In this document: positions 1 through 40,290 of the stretch, piece by piece
Position numbering within the stretch: the first letter of the stretch is position 1
How the letters are laid out: each line of letters begins with the position of its first letter
Assembly (NCBI GenBank): GCA_029945665.1
Contig: JAQSCZ010000096.1
Location: forward strand, 28,862 to 92,861
Origin: a bacterium
GTDB lineage: Bacteria; Bacteroidota; Bacteroidia; NS11-12g; UBA955
Direction: 5' to 3'
Length of the DNA stretch: 64,000 nt
Program-made: the position numbers and the translations under genes
The notes under the pieces: generated by a model
What the model was told of the DNA's origin: nothing
What the model saw: the letters and a program-made list of their open reading frames with translations, nothing else
Database searches by the model: none

Positions 1-935
1 AAAGGCATGGCAGGCGAACCAATGAATTGTTGATTCGGCTCCTTGATACTTTTCGGAATACCACTTTGACCACCAATTTGGGTGCCATCAGCAATGGTTA
101 TGTGACCAACTATTCCAACTTGAGCGCCAATAACACATTGTTTGCCTACTTTGGTACTTCCAGCAACTCCGCTTAAACCAGCTATCACTGTATTCTCGCC
201 TACTTCGGCATTGTGTGCTATCTGCACCATATTGTCTAATTTAACACCTTTGCGCAAAATTGTACTGCCCATGGTTGCTCTATCAATGCAACAATTGGCA
301 CCAGTTTCAACATTGTCTTCGATAATGACATTGCCAATTTGAGGTATCTTAGCATAACTACCATCGGGGGTTGGTGCAAAACCAAAGCCATCCGATCCAA
401 TAGCAGTGCCAGCATGGATAATACAATTATTTCCAACAATACATTCGGCATATAAATTTACACCTGAATAAAAAATCGTATTCGTTCCTACGCGTGCATT
501 TTTACCAATGGTGCAATTCGGATAAATTTGGGCATTTTCACCAATTTCAGCCTCGTCTTCAACGACAACATAGGGTCCAATGTATGCTCCATCGCCAATT
601 TTTGCAGAATAGCTTATAAGTGCCGTTGGATGCACACCATGTCTATTTTGATGTGGATTAAAATATTTATCTAATACTTGACAAAAACCATAATAGGGCA
701 TCGGATGCCTTATGATGGTCGCTTTAACAGGCTTTTCTAAAACCAAATCAGTACTAATAATAATGACTGAAGCAGTTGTGGTATAGAGGTGATTGCTATA
801 TTTGGAATTCGCTAAAAAAGTAATATTGCCAGGTTTGGCATCTTCAATTTTTCCAACAGAAGTTATCAATTGATCGGCATTGCCTTCAATGTTCCCTTTG
901 ATTAAACTGGCTATTTCAGATGCTGATATTTGCAT
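1..935 (-). CDS. lpxD: UDP-3-O-(3-hydroxyacyl)glucosamine N-acyltransferase (LpxD), 3' end cut by window edge
   Basis: This acyltransferase adds the N-linked hydroxyacyl chain to UDP-3-O-acyl-glucosamine in lipid A synthesis in the cytoplasm. Reading the minus strand from the ATG at 935 gives an open frame of about 311 residues that runs off the left edge. Residues 1-100 form the uridine-binding N-terminal domain, with the conserved stretch NPHQNRHGVHPTA near residue 95. After that come many hexapeptide repeats of the left-handed beta-helix (for example ALISYSAKIGDGAYIGPYVV). The stretch AIGSDGFGFAP contains the family signature, and the expected catalytic His lies in MVQIAHNAEVG. Neighbouring lipid A genes, commonly lpxC-fabZ and lpxA in this phylum, would be expected beyond the edge; this is inference. 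The HD phosphohydrolase gene lies 23 bases upstream on the same strand and is probably co-transcribed. Confidence 0.95.
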   Translation of the reverse strand, partial: MQISASEIASLIKGNIEGNADQLITSVGKIEDAKPGNITFLANSKYSNHLYTTTASVIIISTDLVLEKPVKATIIRHPMPYYGFCQVLDKYFNPHQNRHGVHPTALISYSAKIGDGAYIGPYVVVEDEAEIGENAQIYPNCTIGKNARVGTNTIFYSGVNLYAECIVGNNCIIHAGTAIGSDGFGFAPTPDGSYAKIPQIGNVIIEDNVETGANCCIDRATMGSTILRKGVKLDNMVQIAHNAEVGENTVIAGLSGVAGSTKVGKQCVIGAQVGIVGHITIADGTQIGGQSGIPKSIKEPNQQFIGSPAMP

Positions 936-958
936 ATATTAGGGTGCGAAGATAATAT

Positions 959-2179
959 TTAGGGATAATAGCTTAAATAATATTTTTTAACGGTCTGCTT
1001 GAGCGCTTTTAGATTGTAATTATCACTTGCCTCTGTTACATCTTTAATAGTGCCATCCTTCATCAAAATATTAATACGTGTACTTTCATCTTTATAAGCA
1101 TCATTTTTAATTAAATTTTGTGCTGCAAAATAAGATGCCTCAATACTTTTAAGCTTATGCCTTTGACATATTAGGCTTTGTTTTTCAAGCACCACTGATT
1201 CTTCAAAAGGTTTAGATGAAACCAAAATTTTAGGCAAATGACGCTCCACTAAATTTTTGCAAAGAATGCGCAAAATTTTATCATCACAGTGCTGCCATGC
1301 TTTGATAGCTGAAAAAATATCAGAATCATCAAGACTCGCAAAATTCTTTAAGGCCAAAGGTGTATCTGCAAATGTTTTTTTTGTTACGTCATTCTCTAAG
1401 AACCATTCCAATGAAGGCGTTGCAAATAATTTAACGCCCGCTTTACTCACCTCGGCCGCTCTTTTTATAATATTGGTTAAAACAATATCTGTGGCTACTA
1501 CGGTCTTATGCAAATACACTTGCCAATACATTAACCTACGCGCTATGATAAACTTTTCGATGCTATATATTCCTTTTTCCTCAACCACCAATTCATCGTC
1601 TACTACGTTTAACATGTTGATAATTCTTTCTGAGCCAACAACACCTTCGGTAACGCCTGTAAAAAAACTATCGCGACTTAAATAATCGAGGCGGTCCATG
1701 TCAAGTTGACCAGAGATTAGCTGATAGCAAAAGGCTTTCTTATATTGATTTTGAAAAATTTTAATGGCCAAATCGAGTTTTCCTTTAAACTCAATATTGA
1801 GTTCATGCATCATTTTAAGCGAAATATATTCATGTGATACACTTTGAATCAGTGTATGCTCTAGTGTATGGCTATAGGGGCCATGACCAATATCGTGCAA
1901 TAAAATGCCAATGTAAAGGGCTTCGGCTTCGGCATCGGTAATTTTAACGCCTTTTTCTCGCAAAGTATACACCGCTTTGGTCATTAATTGCAGGGCGCCC
2001 AAAGCATGGTGAAAACGAGAATGGGTAGCACCCGGGTATACATAATCGGTCATTCCCAATTGCTTTATCCTACGTAAACGCTGAAAAAAAGGATGTTGGA
2101 TAAGTTCAAAAATCAAGTCGCTAGGAATGGTTAAAAAGCCATAAACTGGATCATTGATAATTTTATTGTTTTTGATCAT
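959..2179 (-). CDS. HD superfamily phosphohydrolase (dNTPase-like)
   Basis: This is a 406-residue cytoplasmic protein of the HD metal-dependent phosphohydrolase superfamily. The metal-binding motif is clear: His 53 and His 57/58 in ATHSRFHHALG, the HD doublet at about 95-96 in LLHDIGHGPYSH, then His 99 and His 104. The start ISDPVYGF-like region (NDPVYGFLTIP) and total length match the bacterial dGTPase-like HD proteins that sit next to lpxD in many Bacteroidota. The physiological substrate cannot be read from the sequence. The ATG at 2179 is preceded by a good promoter (TAATTTTG at 2193-2200 on the minus strand), so this gene probably heads an operon that continues into lpxD. Confidence 0.88.
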   Translation of the reverse strand: MIKNNKIINDPVYGFLTIPSDLIFELIQHPFFQRLRRIKQLGMTDYVYPGATHSRFHHALGALQLMTKAVYTLREKGVKITDAEAEALYIGILLHDIGHGPYSHTLEHTLIQSVSHEYISLKMMHELNIEFKGKLDLAIKIFQNQYKKAFCYQLISGQLDMDRLDYLSRDSFFTGVTEGVVGSERIINMLNVVDDELVVEEKGIYSIEKFIIARRLMYWQVYLHKTVVATDIVLTNIIKRAAEVSKAGVKLFATPSLEWFLENDVTKKTFADTPLALKNFASLDDSDIFSAIKAWQHCDDKILRILCKNLVERHLPKILVSSKPFEESVVLEKQSLICQRHKLKSIEASYFAAQNLIKNDAYKDESTRINILMKDGTIKDVTEASDNYNLKALKQTVKKYYLSYYP

Positions 2180-2192
2180 GGAAGGAAAAGTG

Positions 2193-2223
2193 CAAAATTA
2201 CGCATTTTTAAATGCAATAAAAC
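2193..2223 (-). promoter_or_regulatory. Bacteroidota-type promoter for the HD phosphohydrolase/lpxD operon
   Basis: On the minus strand a TTT (2221-2223) is followed by exactly 20 bases and then TAATTTTG (2193-2200), matching the phylum consensus TTG-N19-21-TAnnTTTG. The ATG at 2179 lies 13 bases past the -7 box, which leaves a very short leader. Confidence 0.6.
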
Positions 2224-2357
2224 ACTTGCATTAATTAGATTAAACGAAGATTAAATAAACTTTGAAGAATAATATTATTTAATTAATAAACAGCAGATAA
2301 AAGCCCTCAAGGCAATATATTGAGGTAAACAAAAAATAAAGTTTTAATATTGTAGTA

Positions 2358-5057
2358 ATGCGTCTTCCATTATTATTAATATATATGTTATTGTTTGAGC
2401 ATTTTATCAACGCGCAGAAAGAAACCAATAATTGGTATTTTGGTGATAAAGCTGGTATCACATTTAACACCAATCCTCCTTCTGCACTCACCAATAGCCA
2501 AATGTCTACCGATGAAGGATGTGCCTCTATTAGTGCACCCAATGGCCGATTGTTATTTTATACGGATGGTGTTAATGTTTGGGATAGTACGCATAAACTG
2601 ATGCCAAACGGAACAGGTCTTAATGGCAATGCTACCTCTACCCAGTCTGCCATTATAGTTCCAAAACCAGGAAGTCCTCAAATTTATTATATATTCACTG
2701 TTGCTCCAGAGGCAACTAAAGCTGGCTTGCAATATTCTGAGTTGGACATGTCGCTTAACAATGGAAAAGGCGATATTTTAAGTACCCGAAAGAATATCAA
2801 ACTTAAAAGTCAAGTGGCCGAAAAAATAACCGCAGTACAGAAGAAAAACAGCAGCGATTATTGGGTTTTAGCAGCACGATTTTACAGCGATTCGTTTTTT
2901 GCCTTTAGTGTTACTTCATCAGGTGTAGGTTTTGTGCCTGTAAGCTATAGAACAGGTTTTAGCTTATTTGGACAAGGAATAAATGCCATTGGCTATTTAA
3001 AAATTTCTCCCAATGGCGAAAAAGTAGCTTTTGCCAACAACACATTCGACACTTCCGTTGTCGCGGACTTTGATGCTGCGACTGGAAAAATGTCTAATAT
3101 TTGGCGTTTTTACAGCCATTATGGCTATGGGATAGAATTTTCTCCTAAAACCAAATTTCTTTATACAACAGAAACAGGTACCAATAAAGTATATCAATTC
3201 GATTTATCAACCAAGAGTTATGCCGTATTCTTGGCATCTAAAAAAATTGTTGATAGTAATTACATAGTTCCACCTGGCGCCTTACAAATTGGGCCTGATG
3301 GGAAAATTTACATTGCCATGATTAGTGGGCAATATCTTTCTGTGATACACTCGCCAGATATACGAAATTGCAATTCACAAAAGAATTATATTTTCCTAAA
3401 AGGTAATTATTGTCGTTATGGATTACCCACTTTTATTCAATCTTATTTTAAGGATACAAGCATTCTCGTTTCACGAAAATGTCAGAATGATTCAACCACC
3501 TTTACAATTGGAGACAAGGGCAATAAAGATTCTGTTCTATGGGATTTTGACGACCCCAGTTCTGGTATTCAAAATAGTTCAAAAGCCGAAGATAGTATTT
3601 ACCATATTTACAGTCAATCGGGCACTTACAATGTAAAACTTACGACCTATTTAAATGGCATACCAAGTTATATGTCAGTGAAATTTTCTATCAACAAACC
3701 TTTTAAACCCTTTATAGGCAAGGATACAACACTCTGTAATCAATTTAATATTTGGCTCCAAACACCAAAAAAATATGCACTATATCGGTGGTTGCCTAAG
3801 GACACTAATTCTAGCACTTTAAATGTGTTTAAAAAAGGCACTTATTATTTAAGTGTTTCAGATAGTGGCGACTGTTGGAGTAACGATACTATTGTAATTA
3901 ACAATCCTACAGCTATTGCTCAAATGGCATTATCTGATACCGTAAAATGTTTAAAAGGAAATGTCTTTAATATCAAAAGTAGCGGCCTTTTTAATAACGA
4001 TAAACCACTCAATTTGCGCTTTTTTTTTGATGACAACACCAACAGTATTGACTCTAATTTCAATAAAACATTTGCAATCGCTGGTTCACATCTAATTAAA
4101 TTAGTTGTAGAAAGTTCGTTAAAGTGCAAAGATTCAATTTTAAGAACTGTTAAAGTATGGCCTAGAAATAAGATTGATTTGGGAAATGATACTACTTTCT
4201 GTAAAAATATTTCATACGTATTAGATGCTGGCAATGGATTTAAGCAATACAAATGGAACACTGGCGATACTCTTTCTAAATTAACACTATACAGCAGTGG
4301 ACTTTATCATGTAAATGTTACCGACTTTAATGGCTGCAAAGAGAGTGACACAGTTTTAATTATGGAAATTCAAGCACCAACAATTAAAGTAGCTTATGAT
4401 TCTATAAATTGCAAATATGTTTACTTATCGGTAGATAGCATGAATGGAACAACTTATTTGTGGAATACTGGAGCCACAAATAAATCTATTAGTATTGATA
4501 GCAAAGGTTGGTATCATGTTAAGGCGAATCATTTGCTGTGTACCAATGGTGATTCCATATTGATAAATGCCTTGGCAATGCCTGAGGTTAATTTAGGAAC
4601 AGATACCAACTTATGTACATACGACCTTAAATTGACAACTGGCGAAAAAGGTGATTACCTATGGAGTACTGGAGCAATTGGTTCCTCAATCTCCATCAAT
4701 GCACCTGGTAAATATTGGCTAACGGTGAGTAGAAATAATTGCTCTGCTACAGATTCTGTGAATGTGAAATTATGCGAAGAGATGGTATACTTTGTGCCCA
4801 ATGCATTTACACCAAATGATGACGCTATCAATGATGAATTCGAAGTATATGGAGCTGGCATTGCTAGTATAGAACTTGAAATATACAACCTATGGGGCGA
4901 ATTAATATATAAAACAATGGGCAAAGACGTAAGTTGGGATGGCACTTATAACAATGAATTGTGCATGGATGGCATTTACTTTTACAAAGCATTAATTGTG
5001 GGGAAAAAGAAAGGAAGTGTTAAAAACATCAAAGGAAGTGTTAACCTTTTGAAATAA
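2358..5057 (+). CDS. Large secreted surface protein with PKD domain and T9SS type B (CHU_C) C-terminal domain, paralog 1
   Basis: This 899-residue exported protein starts with a signal peptide ending near INAQ, followed at once by the family motif KETNNWYFGDKAG. An N-terminal region of about 350 residues looks like a repeat-rich beta structure (motifs such as GRLLFYTDGVNVWD and LQIGPDGKIYIA). A PKD-like domain follows (VLWDFDDPSSG to SGTYNVKLTTY, about 390-440). Next come several immunoglobulin-like modules of about 60 residues that repeat Y-x-W-N-T-G. The last 85 residues are the gliding motility-associated C-terminal domain (VPNAFTPNDDAINDEFEVYG to the end), the signal for T9SS export and surface anchoring. 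It is the most diverged of three tandem paralogs and carries extra modules. An adhesin or matrix role is inference; no catalytic motif is visible. Confidence 0.85.
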   Translation: MRLPLLLIYMLLFEHFINAQKETNNWYFGDKAGITFNTNPPSALTNSQMSTDEGCASISAPNGRLLFYTDGVNVWDSTHKLMPNGTGLNGNATSTQSAIIVPKPGSPQIYYIFTVAPEATKAGLQYSELDMSLNNGKGDILSTRKNIKLKSQVAEKITAVQKKNSSDYWVLAARFYSDSFFAFSVTSSGVGFVPVSYRTGFSLFGQGINAIGYLKISPNGEKVAFANNTFDTSVVADFDAATGKMSNIWRFYSHYGYGIEFSPKTKFLYTTETGTNKVYQFDLSTKSYAVFLASKKIVDSNYIVPPGALQIGPDGKIYIAMISGQYLSVIHSPDIRNCNSQKNYIFLKGNYCRYGLPTFIQSYFKDTSILVSRKCQNDSTTFTIGDKGNKDSVLWDFDDPSSGIQNSSKAEDSIYHIYSQSGTYNVKLTTYLNGIPSYMSVKFSINKPFKPFIGKDTTLCNQFNIWLQTPKKYALYRWLPKDTNSSTLNVFKKGTYYLSVSDSGDCWSNDTIVINNPTAIAQMALSDTVKCLKGNVFNIKSSGLFNNDKPLNLRFFFDDNTNSIDSNFNKTFAIAGSHLIKLVVESSLKCKDSILRTVKVWPRNKIDLGNDTTFCKNISYVLDAGNGFKQYKWNTGDTLSKLTLYSSGLYHVNVTDFNGCKESDTVLIMEIQAPTIKVAYDSINCKYVYLSVDSMNGTTYLWNTGATNKSISIDSKGWYHVKANHLLCTNGDSILINALAMPEVNLGTDTNLCTYDLKLTTGEKGDYLWSTGAIGSSISINAPGKYWLTVSRNNCSATDSVNVKLCEEMVYFVPNAFTPNDDAINDEFEVYGAGIASIELEIYNLWGELIYKTMGKDVSWDGTYNNELCMDGIYFYKALIVGKKKGSVKNIKGSVNLLK

Positions 5058-5123
5058 ATAATATTGCGTTTTAAAGCAGGCAACTATTTTGCATTAAGAA
5101 TGGTCTTATAAAAAACACCTCGA

Positions 5124-7400
5124 ATGATTAAAAAAATTACATTTTTAATTTTTATATGTTCTATGCTAACTGTCAATGCGCAGAAGGAATGTAATATGTG
5201 GTATTTTGGAAGGTATGCGGGGTTAAATTTCAATACTATCCCACCATCTTCTATAAGCGATAGCAGAATGAGTGCAAGAGAATCATCCACAAGTATGTGC
5301 GATAGTGCTGGCAATCTTCTTTTCTACACAAATGGGGATACGATTTGGAATAGAAACCATCAATTAATGCTCAACTGGAAATCCGGCAGACCCTTTGCCG
5401 CCATTAATAGTGCAACACAGGGAAGCATGGCACTTCGAATGCCAGGAAATAATAATTTGTATTATATTTTCCAAGGCCTTTCAGATGAAAACATATCGGG
5501 ATTGAATAAGGATTCTATGTTGCGTTATTGTATCATTGATATTAAAGGAGATGGTGGACTAGGGTCAGTTATGGTTAAAGATCAACCACTGATAAAGGCA
5601 CGCAATGAAAATTTTGCAGTTACACTTCATAAGAATGGTAAAGACCTTTGGGTTGCGGCAACAGACAACCGTACTGGAATTTTTAATTGCATCCGTACCA
5701 CTAATTGCAATTTTTTATCACCTGCTATACAACAAAAACTAAGTCCAAAATGGGACCAATTCTCCAGATTTATAAAATTTTCACCGGATTCACGTATTTT
5801 ATATAGCAAAGAATCTCTCAATTCCAGTGGCAATTATTTTATAAATCTATATCAATTTGACAATTCTAACGGGAAGCTTTCTCAACATATATCCATCCCA
5901 AAAGGTAATCAAATAGCCGTAGGTCATGGCTATTCAGAGTTTTCACCTGATTCACGGTTTCTATATACAGTTATTTCAGAAGGAAATATCTATTACCTAT
6001 GTCAATATGATCTATCAAAATGGGATTCTGCTGCAATCAGTTCTTCAAAACAAATAATCTTTTCTATACCCGTGAGCTCACCTTCTTATCATCCATTTGC
6101 AGAATTGCAACTTGGCCCGGATGGGAAAATATATTGCTTTAATATCGCTCCACTTTACAACAACAGCAAAAAAATATCTATAATTAACAACCCCAATAAC
6201 CCCGGAGTTGGCTGCAATTTTTGGCTAGAAAATATAGATCTGAACAAAGGCACCATTGTTCTTGGCGGTCCATACTACCCTTCTTTCTATTTTCGAAATG
6301 CAAAAGTTAATTTGGGTATAGATACAACATTATGTCTAGGTGATTCTATGACTTTGCGATGTAATCCTGCTAAACAAGATAAAATAAAATGGAGTACAGG
6401 GGATACAACTGATGCAATAATTATAAAAAATGCAGGCATATACAGTGTTGCTTTATCGAGATATGGCTTGACCCAATCGGATACTATAAAAGTCTTTGTG
6501 GGCCCCAAATTCAAAGTCTTCATCGGCAACGATACCGCCTTCTGCCATCAATTTTCTCACCTCATAAAAGCAAGTCCTGGTTTTGCTAAATACAATTGGA
6601 ATACTGGCTCGAACAACATGCAGATTACAGTTAATTCGAAAGGCATCTATTCAGTTAAAGTACTTGATTCTAATTCTTGCCCAAGTGGAGATACAATAGC
6701 CATAGATGAAATTAAAAAACCCCTCATTAAAATCAGTTATGATTCTGTAAATTGTAAGTATGTTTATCTTACCTCAGATTCAATTAAAGGACTCTCCTAT
6801 TTATGGAATACTGGAGAAACAAAGAATGCAATTACAGTTTCTAAAAAAGGTTGGTACAGCATCACTGCCAGGCATCAATTTTGTAGCAATACGGATTCTA
6901 TTTTGGTAGATAAATTGGCGATGCCCGAAATTGATTTAGGTGCAGATACCAGTTTATGTTTGAATGAAATTATTTTAAAGACGAAGGAACAGGGAATTTA
7001 TTTATGGAATACTGGTCAAAAGACTCCCTCGATTATTGTTAATCAACCCGGTAAATATTGGCTAACAGTGACTAGAAATAATTGTTCAACAACAGATACG
7101 GTTGAAGTGAAATTGTGTGAAGACATGCTGGTATACATCCCCGATGTATTTTCGCCCAACGGTGATGGCATTAATGATGTGTTCAAAATTTATGGCTCAA
7201 ACATTATTTATGCAGAGTTAGAGATATTTAACAGATGGGGCGAAAAGCTTTTACAAACCAATGGCAAAGAGGCGCAATGGGACGGCACTTATAAAAATGA
7301 AATGTGCATGGAAGGGGTGTATTTTTACATGGTAAAGATTAAAGGAAAGAAACTAGGTAGTATGAAATATTTAAGTGGAAGTTTGACTTTGATAAGATAA
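5124..7400 (+). CDS. Large secreted surface protein with T9SS type B C-terminal domain, paralog 2
   Basis: This 758-residue protein belongs to the same family as the genes on either side. It has a signal peptide ending at VNAQ, then KECNMWYFGRYAG, and a beta-rich N-terminal region with GNLLFYTNGDTIWNRNHQLM and LQLGPDGKIYCF. From about residue 395 there are Ig-like modules, each with a W-N/S-T-G core and spaced cysteines (FCHQF, SLCLN). The C-terminal domain (VFSPNGDGINDVFKIYG to the end) is the T9SS sorting domain. The start is the ATG at 5124, with no Shine-Dalgarno sequence. The next paralog begins 7 bases after the stop, so the two are almost certainly co-transcribed. Bases 6501-7227 are identical to 8785-9511 in the next gene, which means residues about 460-701 are the same in both proteins. 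Confidence 0.85.
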   Translation: MIKKITFLIFICSMLTVNAQKECNMWYFGRYAGLNFNTIPPSSISDSRMSARESSTSMCDSAGNLLFYTNGDTIWNRNHQLMLNWKSGRPFAAINSATQGSMALRMPGNNNLYYIFQGLSDENISGLNKDSMLRYCIIDIKGDGGLGSVMVKDQPLIKARNENFAVTLHKNGKDLWVAATDNRTGIFNCIRTTNCNFLSPAIQQKLSPKWDQFSRFIKFSPDSRILYSKESLNSSGNYFINLYQFDNSNGKLSQHISIPKGNQIAVGHGYSEFSPDSRFLYTVISEGNIYYLCQYDLSKWDSAAISSSKQIIFSIPVSSPSYHPFAELQLGPDGKIYCFNIAPLYNNSKKISIINNPNNPGVGCNFWLENIDLNKGTIVLGGPYYPSFYFRNAKVNLGIDTTLCLGDSMTLRCNPAKQDKIKWSTGDTTDAIIIKNAGIYSVALSRYGLTQSDTIKVFVGPKFKVFIGNDTAFCHQFSHLIKASPGFAKYNWNTGSNNMQITVNSKGIYSVKVLDSNSCPSGDTIAIDEIKKPLIKISYDSVNCKYVYLTSDSIKGLSYLWNTGETKNAITVSKKGWYSITARHQFCSNTDSILVDKLAMPEIDLGADTSLCLNEIILKTKEQGIYLWNTGQKTPSIIVNQPGKYWLTVTRNNCSTTDTVEVKLCEDMLVYIPDVFSPNGDGINDVFKIYGSNIIYAELEIFNRWGEKLLQTNGKEAQWDGTYKNEMCMEGVYFYMVKIKGKKLGSMKYLSGSLTLIR
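6501..7227 (+). repeat. Exact 727-base direct repeat, copy A (inside paralog 2)
   Basis: Every base from 6501 to 7227 matches 8785-9511, at an offset of 2284. The block starts abruptly at GGCCCCAAATTC and ends at the first mismatch, 7228 (T) against 9512 (A). Sequence before 6501 is clearly diverged between the two genes, and sequence after 7227 differs at scattered bases. This is the pattern of recent gene conversion between tandem paralogs. Confidence 0.97.
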
Positions 7401-7407
7401 AATATTA

Positions 7408-9684
7408 ATGAATCTGAGAAATCTATATATTGTAGCTATAATTTTTGTTTCCACATTTGGAAACTTGCATGCGCAGAAAGAATATAACATGTGGTATTTT
7501 GGAAATGGCGCAGGGCTTGATTTTAACACAACCCCTCCAAGTGTTTTAAACAATAGTAAATTACATGCTTTTGAAGGCACCACCAGTATTTGTGATAGCA
7601 ATGGCCAATTACTTTTTTATTCTAATGGCGACACTATATTTAATCGAAATCACCAGCTAATGTTCAACAGTTCATCAAGCATGCCATACGCTAAGGTTGG
7701 CAGCGCAGTGCAGAGTTGCTTGGCACTTCCAGTTCCTGGTAGTAAAAATCTCTATTATCTTTTCCTTGGTCTCTCGCGCGAAAATACTTTTGGTTTGAAT
7801 CAAGATTCTATGCTTAGATATTGGGTGATTGATATGGACAAAGATGGAGGAATGGGTGAAGTGACTATGAGGGATGAACCACTAATTCCAGGTAGATTGG
7901 AAAACTTCGCTGTAACGCTGCATTCAAATGAAAAAGATTATTGGGTAGCATCTACAGATGTTGTTAATAGCACTTTTAATTGTATCCGCACTACTAATGG
8001 ACAATTCACTACAACACCACTAAGTCAAAAGCTTGATATAAAATCTAATAATTTATGGGGCAATAATAAATTTTCACCCGACTCCCGAATCTTTTTCAGT
8101 AAAGAAACAATGAAAAAAAATAAAAGCTATCTCAACCTTTATAAATTTAACAATGCAAACGGACAAATTTCGCAGCCAATATGTATTCAAGTAAAAACAG
8201 ATGTTTACTACACCGAATTTTCATCAGATTCAAGGTTTCTTTATGTTCCTACACTCGATTCTTTGAAATTTAGTCTCTTTCAATATGATCTTTCTGTTTG
8301 GGATTCAACCGCTATTGAATCTTCAAAACAAATAGTTCATTCTTATATCATTAACATGAATGCATTCCCTTATGTTGGAGGACTTCAATTAGGACCTGAT
8401 GGCAAGATTTATTATTTCCACAACAGCAATTATCCACCTTATCTCAATAGTAAAGTTTCGGTCATTAACCAACCAGATAAAAAAGGAACCGCCTGTAACT
8501 TTAGTTTTAAAAGCATTGATTTAAATAATGTAACGAATAATTTTGGAGGACCTTATTATCCTTCTTTTTGGTTTAGAACCAAGAAAATAAGCATTGGCCG
8601 AGACACGCTTATTTGCGAGGGCGATAAGCTTAACATTACCTGCAAAGCAAATCCAAACAGCATTATACTTTGGAGTACAGGTGCTGTTGGCAAAAGCATA
8701 ATAGTTACTAAGCAAGGCATTTATTCAGTAAAAGTAACATCGCCAAGTGGAAACGTTCAATTCGACACCATCGTAGTAAAAATTGGCCCCAAATTCAAAG
8801 TCTTCATCGGCAACGATACCGCCTTCTGCCATCAATTTTCTCACCTCATAAAAGCAAGTCCTGGTTTTGCTAAATACAATTGGAATACTGGCTCGAACAA
8901 CATGCAGATTACAGTTAATTCGAAAGGCATCTATTCAGTTAAAGTACTTGATTCTAATTCTTGCCCAAGTGGAGATACAATAGCCATAGATGAAATTAAA
9001 AAACCCCTCATTAAAATCAGTTATGATTCTGTAAATTGTAAGTATGTTTATCTTACCTCAGATTCAATTAAAGGACTCTCCTATTTATGGAATACTGGAG
9101 AAACAAAGAATGCAATTACAGTTTCTAAAAAAGGTTGGTACAGCATCACTGCCAGGCATCAATTTTGTAGCAATACGGATTCTATTTTGGTAGATAAATT
9201 GGCGATGCCCGAAATTGATTTAGGTGCAGATACCAGTTTATGTTTGAATGAAATTATTTTAAAGACGAAGGAACAGGGAATTTATTTATGGAATACTGGT
9301 CAAAAGACTCCCTCGATTATTGTTAATCAACCCGGTAAATATTGGCTAACAGTGACTAGAAATAATTGTTCAACAACAGATACGGTTGAAGTGAAATTGT
9401 GTGAAGACATGCTGGTATACATCCCCGATGTATTTTCGCCCAACGGTGATGGCATTAATGATGTGTTCAAAATTTATGGCTCAAACATTATTTATGCAGA
9501 GTTAGAGATATATAACAGATGGGGCGAAAAGCTTTTACAAACCAATGTCAATGAGGCGCAATGGGACGGCACCTATAAAAATGAAATGTGTATGGAAGCG
9601 GTGTATTTTTACAAGGTGAAGATTAAAGGAAAGAAACTAGGTAGTATGAAATATTTAAGTGGATCGATAACTTTACTAAAATAA
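7408..9684 (+). CDS. Large secreted surface protein with T9SS type B C-terminal domain, paralog 3
   Basis: This gene also encodes 758 residues. Its signal peptide ends near LHAQ and is followed by KEYNMWYFGNGAG. The N-terminal 390 residues are homologous to paralog 2 but well diverged (GQLLFYSNGDTIFNRNHQLM, LQLGPDGKIYYFH). From residue about 460 the two proteins are identical for some 242 residues and then differ at a few positions in the C-terminal sorting domain (for example NVNEAQWDG here against NGKEAQWDG). The modules are Ig-like repeats plus the CHU_C type T9SS signal, so the protein should end up on the cell surface or be released. The ATG at 7408 is 7 bases behind the previous stop. 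Its ligand is unknown. The variable N-terminal half could be the binding region, with a conserved stalk and anchor; this is inference. Confidence 0.85.
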   Translation: MNLRNLYIVAIIFVSTFGNLHAQKEYNMWYFGNGAGLDFNTTPPSVLNNSKLHAFEGTTSICDSNGQLLFYSNGDTIFNRNHQLMFNSSSSMPYAKVGSAVQSCLALPVPGSKNLYYLFLGLSRENTFGLNQDSMLRYWVIDMDKDGGMGEVTMRDEPLIPGRLENFAVTLHSNEKDYWVASTDVVNSTFNCIRTTNGQFTTTPLSQKLDIKSNNLWGNNKFSPDSRIFFSKETMKKNKSYLNLYKFNNANGQISQPICIQVKTDVYYTEFSSDSRFLYVPTLDSLKFSLFQYDLSVWDSTAIESSKQIVHSYIINMNAFPYVGGLQLGPDGKIYYFHNSNYPPYLNSKVSVINQPDKKGTACNFSFKSIDLNNVTNNFGGPYYPSFWFRTKKISIGRDTLICEGDKLNITCKANPNSIILWSTGAVGKSIIVTKQGIYSVKVTSPSGNVQFDTIVVKIGPKFKVFIGNDTAFCHQFSHLIKASPGFAKYNWNTGSNNMQITVNSKGIYSVKVLDSNSCPSGDTIAIDEIKKPLIKISYDSVNCKYVYLTSDSIKGLSYLWNTGETKNAITVSKKGWYSITARHQFCSNTDSILVDKLAMPEIDLGADTSLCLNEIILKTKEQGIYLWNTGQKTPSIIVNQPGKYWLTVTRNNCSTTDTVEVKLCEDMLVYIPDVFSPNGDGINDVFKIYGSNIIYAELEIYNRWGEKLLQTNVNEAQWDGTYKNEMCMEAVYFYKVKIKGKKLGSMKYLSGSITLLK
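8785..9511 (+). repeat. Exact 727-base direct repeat, copy B (inside paralog 3)
   Basis: This is the partner of 6501-7227, with no mismatch over 727 bases when read line against line. It lies at the same relative position in a gene of the same length, so both copies are in register and in frame. Confidence 0.97.
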
Positions 9685-9806
9685 ATTTGCTATCCATTTC
9701 ATTTGTAGTTTAATCCTTTTATTCGTTAAAAATTCTTGGTTGTTCCAACAACAAAAATTGAATTCTCTAATTTCAATAAAAAGTGCGTGCTTTGCAGTTA
9801 TCAATT

Positions 9807-10460
9807 ATGCTTACCAAACAACAAATCGCCAAAAGAATCGCTTCGGAATTAAAAGATGGATTTTATGTTAACCTAGGTATTGGTATTCCTACGCTTGTTG
9901 CCAATTACATTCCCGAAGGCGTGGAGGTAATTTTACAATCTGAAAATGGCTTACTGGGGATGGGTCCGTTTCCATTTGAAGGCGATGAAGATGCGGATCT
10001 GATAAATGCCGGTAAACAAACCATCACCACTGTTCCTGGTTCCTCTTTCTTTGACAGTGCTGTAAGTTTTGGAATGATAAGGGCTGGAAAAGTAGATCTG
10101 ACTGTATTAGGGGCTATGGAAGTAAGCGATAATGGCGATATTGCTAATTGGAAGATTCCCGGTAAAATGGTGAAAGGCATGGGCGGTGCTATGGATTTAG
10201 TAGCCAGTGCAAAAAATATAATTGTAGCCATGCAACATGTTAACAAAGCAGGAGAATCTAAATTATTAAGCAAATGTGATTTACCTATTACAGGTTTAGG
10301 TTGTGTTAAAAAAGTAGTGACCGAATTGGGTGTATTTGATATCAACGAAAATGGTTTCGAAATGGTAGAAATAGCTCCTGGAGTAACAGTTGAAGAGGTA
10401 AAATCAAAAACAATTGGTCGCCTTGTAATTAGCGAAAACCTGAAAACGATTGAAATTTAA
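9807..10460 (+). CDS. scoB: 3-oxoacid CoA-transferase subunit B
   Basis: This 217-residue protein is the B (beta) subunit of a 3-oxoacid (succinyl- or acetoacetyl-) CoA-transferase, which moves CoA between a dicarboxylic or short acyl donor and a 3-oxoacid. Family marks are IAKRIASELKDGFYVNLGIGIPTLV at the start (quoted in part: GFYVNLGIGIPTLVANY), the catalytic glutamate in LQSENGLLGMGPFP, and GKMVKGMGGAMDL. I chose the ATG at 9807 (MLTKQQIAKR), because the upstream GTG at 9783 adds residues unlike the family. The A subunit, normally adjacent, is not in this window: upstream lies a surface-protein gene and downstream a convergent gene. The two convergent genes overlap by 3 bases at their stops. 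Confidence 0.9.
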   Translation: MLTKQQIAKRIASELKDGFYVNLGIGIPTLVANYIPEGVEVILQSENGLLGMGPFPFEGDEDADLINAGKQTITTVPGSSFFDSAVSFGMIRAGKVDLTVLGAMEVSDNGDIANWKIPGKMVKGMGGAMDLVASAKNIIVAMQHVNKAGESKLLSKCDLPITGLGCVKKVVTELGVFDINENGFEMVEIAPGVTVEEVKSKTIGRLVISENLKTIEI

Positions 10461-11605
10461 TTATCTTCTGTAGGAGCCGGTTCAGGCTTAGCCAATTTAG
10501 GCTTTTGCTTAAGTAACAATCCATCGTCGTTGTATAATTCATACAATACTAATTTTCCTTCGGCATTGTAGTATTTCCACTCTCCTACCATTATACCTTC
10601 TTTATAAAATCCTTCAACATGATTGTCTTGGTTGTATAAGCCAGCTTTAAAAACACCATCTAATTTGCCCATTTTATAAGTTCCAAATTGATCGAGCCTA
10701 TGCTCATAATCGGCATGGTATCTATTATCTCCAAGATTGGACATAACTTTTTCAGATGCATAAATTTTAAATGGTCCGTCAAATACATTGTCAGTGAAAG
10801 TATACATACTCAAAGTATCGCCAATTTCGTTAAATGTAACCCAAATACCTTCTTTTAAACCCATCTTATAATTTTCGATTTTTAAAATACTTCCAAAAAC
10901 ATTGTCCCAGTAATAGGAAACACTGTCTTGAATACCGTCTTTAAAATAACTTTCTTCGGCCAAGGTTCCGTTTAGGTGATAGCGTAAAAATTTGCCTTCC
11001 CTAATTCCAAGGCTATAGGTGGTTACCAAACGAATATTGCCGGCCTCATAATAAGTCTCCATTTTGCCATTGGGTTTCTCATTTAACAGTTCTACTTTTT
11101 GCTCGATATTCCCATTGTTATAATACGATATAGAAAGTCCTGTCTTAACTCCCATTATATAGGTAAAAGTATATTTGGGATTGCCGTTATCATAAAAAGC
11201 ATTGACAGTACTGTCCAACAAGTCACCAACATATTTACCAGTTAACTTCAATTTACCATTTGAATGAAAATACTGAAAGGGTCCATTGCGTTTCCCTTCC
11301 TTGAATGATAGCTTTGCTCTTACCAAAACACCACCACTAAAATATTCAGTTTTTGTGCCATCAATCAACCCATTTTTCCATTGAATTTCCTGCATTTTGG
11401 TATTATCTTTAAAGGTTTCAATACTAATGCCAGTATATGGTTGATCTCTAAAATAATAAACATCATTATTATTAATCAATTCCGAAAAAGGAACTTTTCT
11501 GATGGTTGGCCGCGAAGTCGTTACAGGTGGCGTAACCTTGGTTTTTTGCCCATATGTATGAGCAGATATTAACAATGTGATGAAAAAAATGAAACCTTTT
11601 GTCAT
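10457..11605 (-). CDS. Exported MORN-repeat protein (YwqK-like)
   Basis: This 382-residue protein has a signal peptide (cleavage near TYGQ) followed by about a dozen MORN_2 type repeats of the form G-x-x-x-x-Y-x-x-G-x-x-x-x-x-x-x-Y, such as NGPFQYFHSNGKLKLTGKY and GKMETYYEAGNIRLVTTYS. Proteins of this kind are common in Bacteroidota and are often annotated as YwqK antitoxin-like, but no toxin partner is visible here and the function is unknown. The likely location is the periplasm or outer membrane. The C-terminus ends in a Pro/Glu-rich tail. The ATG at 11605 lies only 4 bases behind a strong promoter -7 box, so its mRNA may be leaderless. Confidence 0.75.
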   Translation of the reverse strand: MTKGFIFFITLLISAHTYGQKTKVTPPVTTSRPTIRKVPFSELINNNDVYYFRDQPYTGISIETFKDNTKMQEIQWKNGLIDGTKTEYFSGGVLVRAKLSFKEGKRNGPFQYFHSNGKLKLTGKYVGDLLDSTVNAFYDNGNPKYTFTYIMGVKTGLSISYYNNGNIEQKVELLNEKPNGKMETYYEAGNIRLVTTYSLGIREGKFLRYHLNGTLAEESYFKDGIQDSVSYYWDNVFGSILKIENYKMGLKEGIWVTFNEIGDTLSMYTFTDNVFDGPFKIYASEKVMSNLGDNRYHADYEHRLDQFGTYKMGKLDGVFKAGLYNQDNHVEGFYKEGIMVGEWKYYNAEGKLVLYELYNDDGLLLKQKPKLAKPEPAPTEDN

Positions 11606-11951
11606 GTTGCAAAATTAGTTGGTTTAATAAGAGTTTACAATTTTAGAATTCAACAAATATCAATAACTTATTTACGATGTCTGTCTATTTAAACATTCAG
11701 CATTCAAAATTTTGCGACTAATTGACAAATTCATGAAATTAACTTTCTATTAACGCTAAATTCATTCACTATATTGTCAACCAAGACCATGTATTGGCCT
11801 TATAAATTTGACTTATTAAACCTATTAATATTCTAATATAAAAATAGTTATAATCCTAGCCTCTATGCAAATAATCGATAAATTTTAGACCTAATTAGCC
11901 CTAAATTTGTCATATTATCTTAAATTTGCACAAAATTTTCCAAAAGCGTTC
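11606..11951. other. Divergent intergenic region with several promoter motifs
   Basis: These 346 AT-rich bases separate the MORN gene (minus) from the polysaccharide exporter (plus). Besides the minus-strand promoter there are three plus-strand matches to TAnnTTTG, all TAAATTTG: 11803-11810, 11902-11909 and 11921-11928. The last is 23 bases before the ATG at 11952 and is the most likely start site of the exporter operon. I see no reading frame or RNA gene here. Confidence 0.55.
11610..11640 (-). promoter_or_regulatory. Bacteroidota-type promoter of the MORN-repeat gene
   Basis: Minus-strand TTG (11638-11640), 20 bases, then TAATTTTG (11610-11617). Only CAAC separates the -7 box from the ATG at 11605, which would put the transcription start on or next to the start codon. 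Confidence 0.7.
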
Positions 11952-12722
11952 ATGACCAAATTACCCCTGTTTAACAAAGGTTTTCAAAATGCTGTGCTCA
12001 GTTTAGCACTTAAAACCATTAAATTGAGGTATAAAAATTCATTCTTAGGCATCTTTTGGAGCATGCTTAATCCATTGATATTTTTAACAATACTCATTAT
12101 TGTATTTAAACAAATCAATCACATTGAGCACTTTGCATTGTACGCTTTAACAGGATTAATCTTTTGGAACTTCATTTCTGCATCTATATTGCAAGTGCTT
12201 ACCTCCTTTATTGACAATGCCTCTATTTTAAAATCGATTAATTTACACCCATTTTGTTTTCCATTATCGGCAATGGTAGCAGCTGTGTTTAATTTAATGT
12301 TAACTTTACTTCCCTTTTTTGTTATCATGTTTTTTCTTGGTTATGAAATGAATTGGAGCTTCTTGGCATTTTTTCCTTTTACAATCATCACCGCCATTTT
12401 TGTTTTAGGTCTAGGTATGTTTATGGGAACTGTTAATGTTTTTTTTAGAGATATTCAATTATTATGGACAACGATAATACCTGCGTTCTTTTATTTTACA
12501 CCGATTGCCTATACCCCTGAACTACTTAATGAAAATCAAAGGTTTCTGCTGAAACTGAATCCATTTTATTATTTCGTGGAATCCTATCATGATATTTTTT
12601 ACCGATCGGTATTCCCCAGTTTCGAGAACTTCGGTATGAGTTTATTCATCGCCTTATTAAGCATTACAATTGGCTATGCTGCCTTCAATAAATATAGAAA
12701 GGGGTTTATTTCAAATATCTAA
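11952..12722 (+). CDS. ABC-2 type polysaccharide export permease (Wzm-like)
   Basis: This is the membrane subunit of an ABC exporter for surface polysaccharide, moving lipid-linked glycan across the inner membrane. The 256-residue protein has about six hydrophobic segments. It opens with the amphipathic region typical of the family (LKTIKLRYKNSFLGIFWSML), then LNPLIFLTILIIVFKQI, and carries the late motif NPFYYFVESYHDIFY. I chose the ATG at 11952 over the in-frame start at 11907, because a TAAATTTG promoter box lies at 11921-11928, inside the longer frame. Its stop overlaps the start of the ATPase gene in a TAATG, so the two are translationally coupled. Confidence 0.9.
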   Translation: MTKLPLFNKGFQNAVLSLALKTIKLRYKNSFLGIFWSMLNPLIFLTILIIVFKQINHIEHFALYALTGLIFWNFISASILQVLTSFIDNASILKSINLHPFCFPLSAMVAAVFNLMLTLLPFFVIMFFLGYEMNWSFLAFFPFTIITAIFVLGLGMFMGTVNVFFRDIQLLWTTIIPAFFYFTPIAYTPELLNENQRFLLKLNPFYYFVESYHDIFYRSVFPSFENFGMSLFIALLSITIGYAAFNKYRKGFISNI

Positions 12723-13465
12723 TGAATTCAGTTGAACCAATGATACGATTAACCAATGTGGACATTTGTTTTTATGTTCAAGAGAATGGTTTTGTCTCAA
12801 TGAAAGACTTTTTACTGCATCCAGGAAAATACAAATTACTACAAAAAAGTTTTGTTTTAAAAGACGTCAATCTTCAAATCAATAAAGGTGAATCCTTCGC
12901 CTTATTGGGCAAAAATGGCTCGGGTAAAAGCACCCTATTAAGGGCTTTATCTGGCATTATTACGCCCGACAAAGGCACCATAGAATTATTCGGTGCTGTG
13001 GCGCCATTATTGGGATTAGGCGTTGGTTTAGAGCATGAATTGACTGGCATAGAGAATATCAAATTATCATGTGCTTTAATGGGTATGACCAAAGCAGAAA
13101 TAAAACTCAGATTGCCTGAAATTATATCATTTTCAGAGTTAGGTGAAGCGATTAATTGGCAAGTAAAACGCTACAGTACAGGCATGATGAGTCGATTATC
13201 ATTTAGCATTGCCATTATCAAGCAACCTGAAATTTTACTTATCGATGAGGTGTTATCTGTTGGCGATTTAGGCTTCCAACAAAAATGCATGAAAAAAGTA
13301 ATGGAAATAAAAAACAATGGTGCAACCATCATATTTGTTTCACATAATTTTGAAGAAGTCAGCAATATGTGTACAAGAGCCGCATTGGTTAACGATGGCA
13401 CTGTTGAATTCGTAGGTTCGGTAAAGGAAGTTGGAGAGCGTTATAATCATTTATTTGACAATTAA
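12722..13465 (+). CDS. ABC transporter ATP-binding protein for polysaccharide export (Wzt-like, short form)
   Basis: This cytoplasmic ATPase subunit pairs with the permease just upstream. Visible motifs are the Walker A GKNGSGKS at 63-70, an atypical signature YSTGMMSRLSFSIA at 151-164, Walker B ILLIDEVLSVGD at 171-182, and the switch histidine in IIFVSHNFEEV. The protein has 247 residues and ends soon after the nucleotide-binding domain. It therefore lacks the C-terminal carbohydrate-binding domain of the longer Wzt proteins that recognise a capped O-antigen, which suggests export without chain-end recognition; this is inference from the family. It overlaps the permease by one base and the first glycosyltransferase follows 2 bases later, so the four genes form one operon. 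Confidence 0.92.
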   Translation: MNSVEPMIRLTNVDICFYVQENGFVSMKDFLLHPGKYKLLQKSFVLKDVNLQINKGESFALLGKNGSGKSTLLRALSGIITPDKGTIELFGAVAPLLGLGVGLEHELTGIENIKLSCALMGMTKAEIKLRLPEIISFSELGEAINWQVKRYSTGMMSRLSFSIAIIKQPEILLIDEVLSVGDLGFQQKCMKKVMEIKNNGATIIFVSHNFEEVSNMCTRAALVNDGTVEFVGSVKEVGERYNHLFDN

Positions 13466-13467
13466 AA

Positions 13468-15459
13468 ATGCCAGATACCAATCACAACACAAATAACAAT
13501 CTTGCCAATCAGAATCATAACAAAGAGGCTGAATATACAACCTTATTGAAAGCAGTTAAAAATTATGAAGAGCGAATTAAAGAAATTGAAGGCAGTGTTT
13601 ATTGGAAGTCATATTTGTTTTTTACAAAAACAAAATTAATTTTAACAAGTGATAGCTATTTAAAGAGTGATAAATGGCGATTTTTTCAACGTGTTCGTTT
13701 TCTTGTCTCTCAACCTGGCTTATTTTTAATCAAAAAATTTGCGCTCCAATTATTTCGTTTAGTTTTTGGCAAAGTGAACTCTCTTATTGGACTGCGTCGA
13801 GAAGAAGAAAATCATGCTTATAAAATATTCAAAGAGAAGAAATTCCCGAGACCCAGCGACTTGAAGGCAATGCATGAAAATATTGTTAATTTCTCAAAAT
13901 CACCTTCTTTTGAATTATATGTCAAAGTAAATGGCGAGAATTTCAAATATCTCAATGCGTTTTTGAATGCTTTAGAGAAACAAATTTACACCAAATTTAA
14001 TGTTTGTTTTTTGGTTAATGACAGTTCAGATATTATTCATTACACATTAAGCAAAGTTATCAACCGCGATGAAAAATATAGAGCCATGGCCTTTGCTGAT
14101 TTAAATTCAAAAACCAACTCAATTTTAGGCGAATATGTTATAGTAACTGAATTGTCTTGCATGCTAGCCCCTAGCTGCTTTTATGAATTTATAAATGCAA
14201 TTAACGGCAAAAAAAATCTTGATTTTATATATACAGACAATGATTATATAGCTGAAGAATCTGAATCTACTGAATATACAGAAAACCCATATTTCAAACC
14301 CGATTGGAGCCCGCATACGATTTTGTCAAGAAATTACATAGGTAAAACATTTATGGTTTCAAGGTCGGTTTGGCAATCTATTGATAGTGCGATTATGCCT
14401 AATATTTACGGCTTGATACTTCACCTCACTAATAATTCAAATAAAATTCATCACATTCCTAAAATTCTTTATCACGAATTTCCTGAATCCATTAATTTCA
14501 AACGCATATTAAATAATCACAATGCCTTAAATCGATTTTTAAAAACGAAATATGTCGATGCCTTCGCTAAGTTTTCAGAAGAAGCATTGGGTAGCTTCGA
14601 ACCCCATTTTAAGATTAAGGAAGAAGCCTTAATTAGTATTATTATTCCTTGCCGAAACAAAGCCAATATTTTAGAAAGTTGTCTTAAATCTATTTTTGAA
14701 AAATCCAGCTATAAAAACTTTGAGATCATCATTATTGACAATGGTAGTACCGAAAAAAGCTTCAGTAGCACCGTTGCGCAATGGGAATTCAACTATCCTG
14801 AAAAAATTAAAAGTATAAGAATTGATATTCCTTTTAATTATTCCATCTTAAATAACCTGGCCGCAAAAGAAGCCAATGGTCAGTATTTACTTTTCTTAAA
14901 CAACGACACAGAACTTATATCCGCAAATTTATTTGACAATTTATTGCAAATAGCGCAGTTGGAAAATGTAGGAATGGTCGGTCCAAAACTCCTTTATCCA
15001 AACGATACTTTACAACATGTTGGCATTGTACTCTCTGTTGATGAAGTTGGAACACATGTATATTCGGGCGCACACAAGGACACAGCTGGGTATTACAATA
15101 ACACCAATTGCATGACCAATTATACGGCAGTTACAGGGGCCTGTATGATGATTAAGAAAGAGCGATTTGATTCGATTGGTGGGTTCGATGAACAATTGGC
15201 TGTTGATTGTAATGATGTAGAGTTATGTTGCCGCTTGATGTCCGAAGGTTATTACAATGTTTACGTACCTTGGGTTCAAATGTACCATTACGAATGTTTA
15301 ACACGGGGTAATCCAATCATCAGTAAAAAATCGCTACAAAATCAAACCATGGAAAAAGCGTATTTCATAGAAAAATGGTCCGATATCATTAACAATGATC
15401 CTTTTTACAATATAAACCTTTCGCGTTCTTCTAAATATTTTGAAATCGTAAATGACTAA
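13468..15459 (+). CDS. Two-domain GT2-family glycosyltransferase
   Basis: This 663-residue cytoplasmic glycosyltransferase probably helps assemble the glycan exported by the adjacent ABC transporter. Residues 1-60 are Asn-rich then charged, with a short coiled coil. About 135-380 is a degenerate GT2-like domain with the recognisable YTDNDYIAE and PYFKPDWSPHTILSRNYIG motifs of O-antigen glycosyltransferases. About 390-640 is an intact GT2 domain: ISIIIPCRNKANILESCLKS, IIIDNGSTEKS, the metal-binding LLFLNNDTELI, and GGFDEQLAVDCNDVELCCRL. Only the second domain carries a clear DxD-like motif (NNDTE), so the first may be inactive or have another donor. Donor and acceptor cannot be read from the sequence. 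Confidence 0.88.
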   Translation: MPDTNHNTNNNLANQNHNKEAEYTTLLKAVKNYEERIKEIEGSVYWKSYLFFTKTKLILTSDSYLKSDKWRFFQRVRFLVSQPGLFLIKKFALQLFRLVFGKVNSLIGLRREEENHAYKIFKEKKFPRPSDLKAMHENIVNFSKSPSFELYVKVNGENFKYLNAFLNALEKQIYTKFNVCFLVNDSSDIIHYTLSKVINRDEKYRAMAFADLNSKTNSILGEYVIVTELSCMLAPSCFYEFINAINGKKNLDFIYTDNDYIAEESESTEYTENPYFKPDWSPHTILSRNYIGKTFMVSRSVWQSIDSAIMPNIYGLILHLTNNSNKIHHIPKILYHEFPESINFKRILNNHNALNRFLKTKYVDAFAKFSEEALGSFEPHFKIKEEALISIIIPCRNKANILESCLKSIFEKSSYKNFEIIIIDNGSTEKSFSSTVAQWEFNYPEKIKSIRIDIPFNYSILNNLAAKEANGQYLLFLNNDTELISANLFDNLLQIAQLENVGMVGPKLLYPNDTLQHVGIVLSVDEVGTHVYSGAHKDTAGYYNNTNCMTNYTAVTGACMMIKKERFDSIGGFDEQLAVDCNDVELCCRLMSEGYYNVYVPWVQMYHYECLTRGNPIISKKSLQNQTMEKAYFIEKWSDIINNDPFYNINLSRSSKYFEIVND

Positions 15460-18264: not shown

Positions 18265-18894
18265 ATGTCAAAAAAAATAATATTAATATTAAGTATTGTA
18301 TTTATAGGAATATTTGCCTGTAAATCTAAAAAAACAAGTGTTCCTGCCGAACCCAAAGAAGAAATTGTAAAATTAAGTACCCAATTTGGCGATATGTATA
18401 TTTGGTTATACAAAGCAACACCGCTCCACAGAGAGAATTTTTTAAAATTGGCCAAAGCTGGTTTTTATGATAGTACGACTTTCCACCGCATTATTTCAGG
18501 ATTTATGATTCAAGGTGGCGATCCAAATAGTAAAGATAAAGATCCATACAACGACGGCATGGGTGGCCCGGGCTATACCATACCTGCCGAAATAAGAGAT
18601 ACTATTATCCATGATAGAGGGGCGTTAGCAGCTGCAAGAACCAATAATCCAGAAAAGGCATCAAGTGGTTCTCAATTCTATATTTGTCACAGTAAAGGAG
18701 GCACTTCATTTCTGAATAGACAATACACTGTATTTGGTATGGTAATGAAAGGGATGAATGTTATAGATAGCATTGCCGAACAGCCAAAAGAGCAGGGAGA
18801 TCGTCCGATTAACGATATCAGAATGAAAGTTACAGTGGAACAGCGTACCTTAAAACAAATTCAAACAGAGTTTAATTATATTCCTAAGCAATAA
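18265..18894 (+). CDS. Cyclophilin-type peptidyl-prolyl isomerase lipoprotein, copy 1
   Basis: This 209-residue lipoprotein catalyses cis-trans isomerisation of X-Pro bonds in the periplasm. The lipobox is IFAC with Cys at about residue 18, after a lysine-started hydrophobic signal. The cyclophilin core is complete: FHRIISGFMIQGGDP (catalytic Arg in FHR), ASSGSQFYICHS and QYTVFGMVMKGMNVIDSI. It ends in FNYIPKQ, the same ending as its neighbour. The two genes are a tandem duplicate pair 5 bases apart. The caspase-like gene upstream is probably in the same transcript. Confidence 0.93.
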   Translation: MSKKIILILSIVFIGIFACKSKKTSVPAEPKEEIVKLSTQFGDMYIWLYKATPLHRENFLKLAKAGFYDSTTFHRIISGFMIQGGDPNSKDKDPYNDGMGGPGYTIPAEIRDTIIHDRGALAAARTNNPEKASSGSQFYICHSKGGTSFLNRQYTVFGMVMKGMNVIDSIAEQPKEQGDRPINDIRMKVTVEQRTLKQIQTEFNYIPKQ

Positions 18895-18899
18895 ATAAA

Positions 18900-40112: not shown

Positions 40113-40240
40113 AAGCTTTTGGAGTAATAAAAGGAAGGTGGATTTGGGTAAGTTTTACAAGTGGCTTTGTGGTTAAATGTTTGTCATTTTATTTGCAAAT
40201 ACAGGCAAATAAATCGCCAAACATGGTCAGCATTGTGACC

Positions 40241-40267
40241 GTAACCCCGCACCTGGTGCGGGGTTAC
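40241..40267. repeat. Perfect GC-rich palindrome in repeat copy 1
   Basis: Arms GTAACCCCGCACC and GGTGCGGGGTTAC (13 bases each) surround a single T. The same place in copy 2 (40505-40531) and copy 3 (40769-40795) keeps the dyad with two mismatched positions. Confidence 0.95.
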
Positions 40268-40275
40268 AAACATGT

Positions 40276-40290
40276 GACCCCGATGGGGTC
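40276..40290. repeat. Second palindrome of the repeat unit
   Basis: GACCCC, GAT, GGGGTC in copy 1. Copy 2 (40540-40554) has GACCCC-GCT-GGGGTC. The end of copy 3 has CCCAATTGGG near 40807-40816, a different sequence that is again self-complementary. Confidence 0.85.

Follow-up and report, generated by a model that had tools for sequence, protein, structure and literature searches.

How did two neighbouring genes for surface proteins come to share a 3' half that is the same at every base in the assembly, when their 5' halves have diverged to saturation at synonymous positions? The question is raised by W2 and W3, the second and third genes of a tandem array in the window (i.e., the whole stretch of 64,000 nucleotides that was analysed), which comes from an uncultured member of the Bacteroidota with an assembly of 3.79 Mb in 126 contigs. 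The original prediction was that gene conversion or unequal exchange had homogenised the two genes.

The tandem array and its site

The array and its neighbours are laid out as follows.

959..2179, minus strand: left flanking gene, without an NCBIfam match and presumably HD-domain-like; kept in the related genomes G003, G013 and G015 (86-94% amino acid identity)
2202..9763, no strand assigned: variable segment that holds the three genes in the window and is replaced by 126 bases in G015
2358..5057, plus strand: W1, first array gene, an open reading frame of 899 amino acids with a type I head, a PKD domain, Ig-like domains and a CHU_C sorting domain (PF13585, PF18911, TIGR04131)
5124..7400, plus strand: W2, second array gene, an open reading frame of 758 amino acids with a type II head, an Ig-like stalk and a T9SS type B sorting domain
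5124..6311, plus strand: head of W2, residues 1-396 including the presumed signal peptide, predicted to be beta-propeller-like and diverged from the head of W3
6312..6500, plus strand: Ig-like domain 1 of W2, residues 397-459, on the diverged side of the boundary
7408..9684, plus strand: W3, third array gene, an open reading frame of 758 amino acids with a type II head and a stalk nearly the same as that of W2
9783..10460, plus strand: right flanking gene scoB, 3-oxoacid CoA-transferase subunit B (TIGR02428, 1.3e-96), kept in G003, G013 and G015

All three open frames are complete, and seven bases separate the stop of W2 from the start of W3. Each protein scores above the curated cut-offs of both PF13585 and TIGR04131 (8.3e-21 and 6e-17 in W2, 4e-18 and 5.8e-17 in W3), and judged by this sorting domain all three are predicted surface proteins, cargo of the T9SS of type B. 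Their N-termini appear hydrophobic by eye in the translations, and a signal peptide is presumed. The CHU_C cut-off is exceeded at 59 of the 63 places listed for the window's genome. Around another CHU_C gene lies a 283-base direct repeat (96.5%; L086:6167-6449 and 9816-10098, on G000:C10), near which a tandem repeat with a period of 344 bases is also found (L086:810-1843). Elsewhere in the window, two stretches of ca. 540 bases within 18358-19558 are 71.5% identical and are perhaps another tandem pair of paralogs.

In W2, alignment places further Ig-like domains after Ig-like domain 1, from residue 460 to about 665, and the sorting domain at residues 672-743; the domain borders in the stalk are our own reading of the alignment together with the strand pattern of a structure model. 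This AlphaFold model, built from six sequences, is weak (mean pLDDT 58.7, pTM 0.44), and in it the head consists almost only of strands, and short beta domains are seen in repetition. Foldseek matches, all of low TM-score, included Ig-like fragments of GhpA from Aureispira and an archaeal surface protein with a YVTN propeller and PKD domain (1l0q), and a sequence search of the PDB returned a single match (E 0.026). A propeller-like head on an Ig-like stalk is a reasonable but unproven prediction of the shape of these proteins.

Among the 17 genomes of the genus that were searched, this site is bordered by the left neighbour and scoB in four, i.e., the window's genome, G003, G013 and G015, and the number of genes between them varies from three in the window to two in G003 (A1 and A2; L034), one in G013 (B1; L035) and none in G015. 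On the two sides of the variable segment, window positions 1-2201 and 9764-14774 match adjacent stretches of the G015 locus (L071). None of the window's neighbouring genes was seen in the compared flanks (at most 1.5 kb on each side) of the other 11 scoB loci. At synonymous sites of the left neighbour, G013 and G015 are the closest pair (pS 0.515) and G003 is the furthest (0.759-0.785). A search of contigs with the W2 protein returned no relative, and one with the stalk alignment returned two records, which we equated with G013 and G003.

A homogenised tract between diverged ends

The shared part of W2 and W3, and what follows it, can be divided as below.

6501..7227, plus strand: W2 copy of the block, residues 460-701, a maximal exact match
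8785..9511, plus strand: W3 copy of the block, a maximal exact match
7228..7379, plus strand: less homogenised continuation of the tract, with 8 differences from 9512-9663 in 152 bases
7380..7400, plus strand: unconverted end of W2, with 8 differences in 17 bases from the end of W3

The predicted identity of 727 bases is indeed present (727 of 727), and the match can be extended at neither end. It starts at the border of Ig-like domains 1 and 2 (W2 residue 460) and ends inside the sorting domain (residue 701). The block had been described as the Ig-like stalk, which holds for Ig-like domains 2-4, but it also takes in about half of the CHU_C sorting domain, and Ig-like domain 1 lies outside it. 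Genome-wide there are two copies of the block, plus a partial match of 68% in W1. Besides the block, the window has a single exact direct repeat of 56 bases or longer, a 240-base overlap within a tandem repeat of a 264-base unit (40172-40823; ca. 2.5 units, copies 95.9% identical), a region mostly devoid of open reading frames of at least 100 amino acids. There was no sign of silent cassettes, as all three frames are full and the genome contains the block only in W2 and W3. The idea that the block is widespread in the family was rejected, since in a DNA search of 70 family genomes G003 and G013 were the only genomes besides the window's to contain relatives of full or almost full length, at 72%. 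The search turned up no further genome of the window's species, the best block matches in other genomes being these 72% ones.

The divergence of W2 from W3 changes abruptly along the genes. Their heads are 53% identical in amino acids and synonymously saturated (pS 0.741, pN 0.300), and Ig-like domain 1 is only 40% identical over 63 codon-aligned columns, so that the 5' halves are as diverged as predicted; from residue 460 onward identity is 97% with a pS of 0.027, and the stalk halves agree at all but 2 of 104 four-fold sites. Past the block, the 174 bases of the tail (7228-7401) hold 16 differences. The original prediction called such differences scattered; they are instead grouped, with eight in 7228-7334, none in 7335-7379 and eight again in 7380-7396. 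Over the last 24 coding bases the two genes agree at 16, about the background level. A homogenised tract with diverged sequence on both sides is what conversion would be expected to leave and plain duplication would not, and a simple recent duplication is ruled out by the unconverted end of W2. Compared with the 97% identity of the W2 and W3 stalk proteins to each other, their identity to those of A2 and B1 is 73-75%, which places the homogenisation within the window's lineage. Of the two origins put forward for the abrupt start, gene conversion or unequal exchange, the first is supported by the collapse of synonymous differences, the diverged sequence on both sides of the tract and what the relatives show (a chimera, changes in copy number and older exchange in the stalk).

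A single event over 6501-7379 followed by even mutation would place all eight differences in the last 152 bases with a probability of only ca. 8e-7, which suggests that two events overlapped, that repair was patchy or that the assembler masked differences. By our reading against the relatives, W3 looks derived at six of the eight tail sites in 7228-7334. As to which gene was the donor, the tail sites point both ways.

How far can the assembly itself account for a perfect block? Over ca. 55 bases, contig C76 begins with sequence that many other contigs have at their ends. We gathered 20 contig-end stretches, 19 of them picked for this match and one being the start of the window's own contig, and scored exact termini for 15 of the 19: in 14 the first 52-55 bases recur at another terminus, in one (L116) only 4 do, and none shares more than 55. 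This fits a short-read de Bruijn graph assembly with k=55. A graph of this kind contains the 727-base block as a single edge, walked twice. All 16 differences retained after 7227 are spaced at most 46 bases apart, which is below k, so that the two paths never re-merge in the tail; a lone difference within the block would give a simple bubble and could be masked. Stalks that differ at isolated sites might therefore have been merged into one edge that was printed twice, which would make the perfection of the block partly artificial, and according to the available part of a review (PMC8021871) metagenome assemblers do aim at a consensus, with metaSPAdes collapsing most strain differences. Masking of this kind would, by our estimate, hide about one difference per 55 bases or fewer, i.e., at most 1-2%; it can produce neither the density of differences in 7228-7334 nor the abrupt passage from saturated heads to a shared stalk, it requires a true match over the outermost 55 bases at each end of the block, and both reading frames are intact. 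We regard merging as an improbable explanation of the block and estimate the true identity of the block at about 98-100%, for which "nearly identical" is a better description than the "perfect" of the original prediction, even though the assembly gives 727 of 727. On the same grounds we read the 2,284-base unit as present in at least one extra copy, not exactly one. More generally, a k=55 short-read assembly can lend a recent conversion tract the look of perfect identity. As a separate observation, many contigs of the window's genome (G000) end in one of two sequences of ca. 52-55 bases (e.g., G000:C76:1-55 and G000:C96:1-55), which are similar at their ends and run into an A/T-rich flank; they look like the two ends of a putative high-copy insertion element that broke the assembly. 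A dispersed repeat of ca. 120-250 bases, roughly 80-96% identical, is also found in many G000 contigs (e.g., G000:C76:146-300).

A different route to the same abrupt 5' boundary would be a recent tandem duplicate of W2 whose 5' half was then swapped for the type II head of another lineage, and a junction of head and stalk does occur at this place in B1 of G013 as well. A fresh duplicate should, however, match through its stop codon, where the last bases are at background (8 differences in 17); the heads of W2 and W3 (53%) are nearly as distant from each other as either is from that of A2 (45-46%), and the 17 genus genomes yielded no further gene from which a close type II head could have come. 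We hold such a replacement to be unlikely. Strong purifying selection on the stalk and sorting signal, acting without any recombination, would be in keeping with the generally greater conservation of these parts than of the heads across the family, but the synonymous sites of W2 and W3 are also nearly identical (the 2 of 104 given above) in a region that has diverged by 59-70% from A2 and B1, which refutes selection alone and leaves it with a negligible chance. What very probably took place is intragenomic gene conversion, in which the 3' stalk half of one of these tandem direct-repeat genes was copied onto the other, as the sequences of the window and its relatives together suggest.

Exchange at the same site in relatives

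The original prediction had proposed aligning the paralogs with those of related genomes, profiling synonymous divergence and looking for chimeras and deletions; the alignment and divergence profile gave a near-zero stalk and saturated heads, and both a chimera (in G013) and an empty site (in G015) exist in relatives. With two such genes, one hybrid or none at the site in the relatives, this locus appears to have been recombining for a long time.

In a quartet test with shuffles (W1, W2, A1 and A2; the counts hardly changed when W3 stood in for W2), the informative sites of the heads favor orthologs, with 112 against 39 for paralogs and 38 for the third pairing, and show no clustering. In the stalks the counts are 41, 39 and 17, and the sites that join paralogs are clustered at offsets 312-612, to a degree reached by 0 of 20000 shuffles. 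They delimit one further feature.

6813..7113, plus strand: older-exchange segment, in which gene 1 and gene 2 of one genome are closer to each other than orthologs are, from the quartet sites

By these sites, gene 1 and gene 2 exchanged stalk sequence at an earlier time, and their heads show no such exchange. A second tandem CHU_C array in the genus, a pair kept in several of its members (L072:6821-12010, L073:1895-7083 and L074:6735-11921), served as a control. Its stalk half (last 299 columns) gave 56/25/25 and 69/20/18 sites for ortholog, paralog and third pairing, without clustering, and its first part 136/51/32 (clustering reached by 3410 of 20000 shuffles) and 136/42/30 (304 of 20000, a mild paralog excess and clustering in the A-E comparison). 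The control paralogs are 50-72% identical in successive 150-column windows, with orthologs closer. Strong exchange in the stalk is thus a trait of the window's locus and not of every tandem pair, and homogenisation as an automatic outcome of tandem layout was rejected, because the stalk half of the control array is not homogenised.

B1 of G013 changes company between its two halves. The head tree separates two clades, W1 with A1 and B1 (100/100) and W2 with W3 and A2 (100/100), while in the stalk tree, rooted with the best genus matches outside the locus (O36-O39, from L036-L039), B1 groups with A2, to which it is 93% identical, and with W2 and W3 (85/89 for the four). AU tests rejected placing the B1 head with type II (p 0.006) and the B1 stalk with W1, whether together with A1 (p 0.029) or alone (p 0.003); a position of the stalk next to W2 and W3 and apart from A2 was not rejected (p 0.12). 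The similarity of A2 and B1 starts ca. 20 bases upstream of the start of the W2-W3 block. B1 is, by these trees, a chimera of a type I (gene-1) head and a type II (gene-2) stalk, joined near the place where the window's block starts. No second type II gene was seen in G013, a genome listed as 87% complete, and an assembly jump in G013 would itself require a shared stalk.

Between A2 and B1 the stalks differ at 33 of 92 four-fold sites (36%). For comparison, two orthologs of G003 and G013 taken as controls differ at 170 of 238 and at 160 of 230 such sites (70-71%), the left neighbours of these genomes at 66 of 111 and their scoB genes at 39 of 85 (46%, a difference from the stalk that is not significant, p 0.22). 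As the W2 stalk differs from A2 or B1 at 59-70% of four-fold sites, constraint is not the cause of this low divergence. An exchange of stalks between the G003 and G013 lineages is likely from these counts, though the protein tree leaves an alternative standing (p 0.12).

A candidate mechanism and comparison with known systems

We propose that the exchange proceeds by ordinary homologous recombination between direct repeats. The W2/W3 tract would run from the linker that joins Ig-like domains 1 and 2 to within a few codons of the stop, with the less homogenised 152 bases ahead of that end pointing to at least two overlapping or patchy events. It would be the latest of several exchanges, in which the stalk recombines between neighbours and probably between lineages, whereas the heads, too diverged to recombine readily, would be kept and go on diverging as orthologous types, with gene number ranging from 0 to 3. 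The exchange between W2 and W3 would be non-reciprocal, and the line to B1 deletional, as joining a gene-1 head to a gene-2 stalk drops the intervening DNA; the empty site of G015 is possibly a complete loss. Only four genomes share the locus, and exchange is seen in them as a pattern rather than as a rate.

Whether this arrangement does anything for the bacterium is a separate matter, which would come on top of conversion as the mechanism rather than replace it. The array could keep stalk and anchor constant while varying the heads, e.g., against phages, grazers or surfaces. The type I heads do evolve fast (pN 0.29-0.33, compared with 0.11-0.19 for whole-gene control orthologs of the same genomes) and clustered exchange is confined to the stalk, but neutral recombination limited to the still-similar stalk predicts the same pattern equally well. 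The neutral account is enough for what is observed, and we consider an adaptive role doubtful. With similar reserve, we speculate that the linker between Ig-like domains 1 and 2 might be a recurrent crossover at which whole heads are joined to a common T9SS stalk, both within and across species, which would give this one chromosomal site from 0 to 3 or more display genes, and these uncultured Bacteroidota a standing supply of surface variants. The site, running from a conserved left neighbour to scoB, offers a concrete locus at which to ask whether head exchange occurs in populations.

Our literature search found no report of gene conversion in tandem genes for CHU_C or type B T9SS proteins, which is no proof of absence. 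The closest parallels come from Helicobacter pylori. According to the accessible part of PMC3960876, the 3' segments of babA and babB are alike within a strain, their 5' and middle parts are alike between strains, and chimeric bab genes occur; in the corresponding part of PMC2795765, segment 3 of homA and homB is under concerted evolution while segment 1 diverges. The window's locus resembles what these accounts describe, with 5' parts that group by ortholog, 3' parts that are closer between paralogs of one genome (the 97% against 73-75%), a chimeric gene (B1) and changes in copy number. Unlike bab and hom, which are Helicobacter outer-membrane adhesins at several loci and in many strains of one species, the array consists of tandem T9SS cargo genes in four species-level genomes and is known from sequence alone.

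Closer in secretion system, Porphyromonas gingivalis, which has a T9SS, rearranges adhesin domains between its surface proteins (gingipain/HagA), as far as the consulted part of PMC5266723 describes. These are likewise modular T9SS-exported surface proteins with domain exchange and allelic variation, but they belong to other protein families, and in the same account their modules are rearranged among several surface genes and strains, whereas in the window a whole 3' half is homogenised between tandem neighbours. All three array genes carry PF13585 and TIGR04131 as T9SS type B CHU_C proteins do, and yet the other tandem CHU_C array examined in the genus, unlike W2 and W3, kept its stalk half unhomogenised. 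Taken together, the locus appears to work like bab and hom, an already known kind of system in another protein family and in another phylum than that of Helicobacter. The concerted evolution of the 3' half of a surface protein, with a natural chimera and an empty site, would thereby be placed in T9SS type B cargo of uncultured Bacteroidota.
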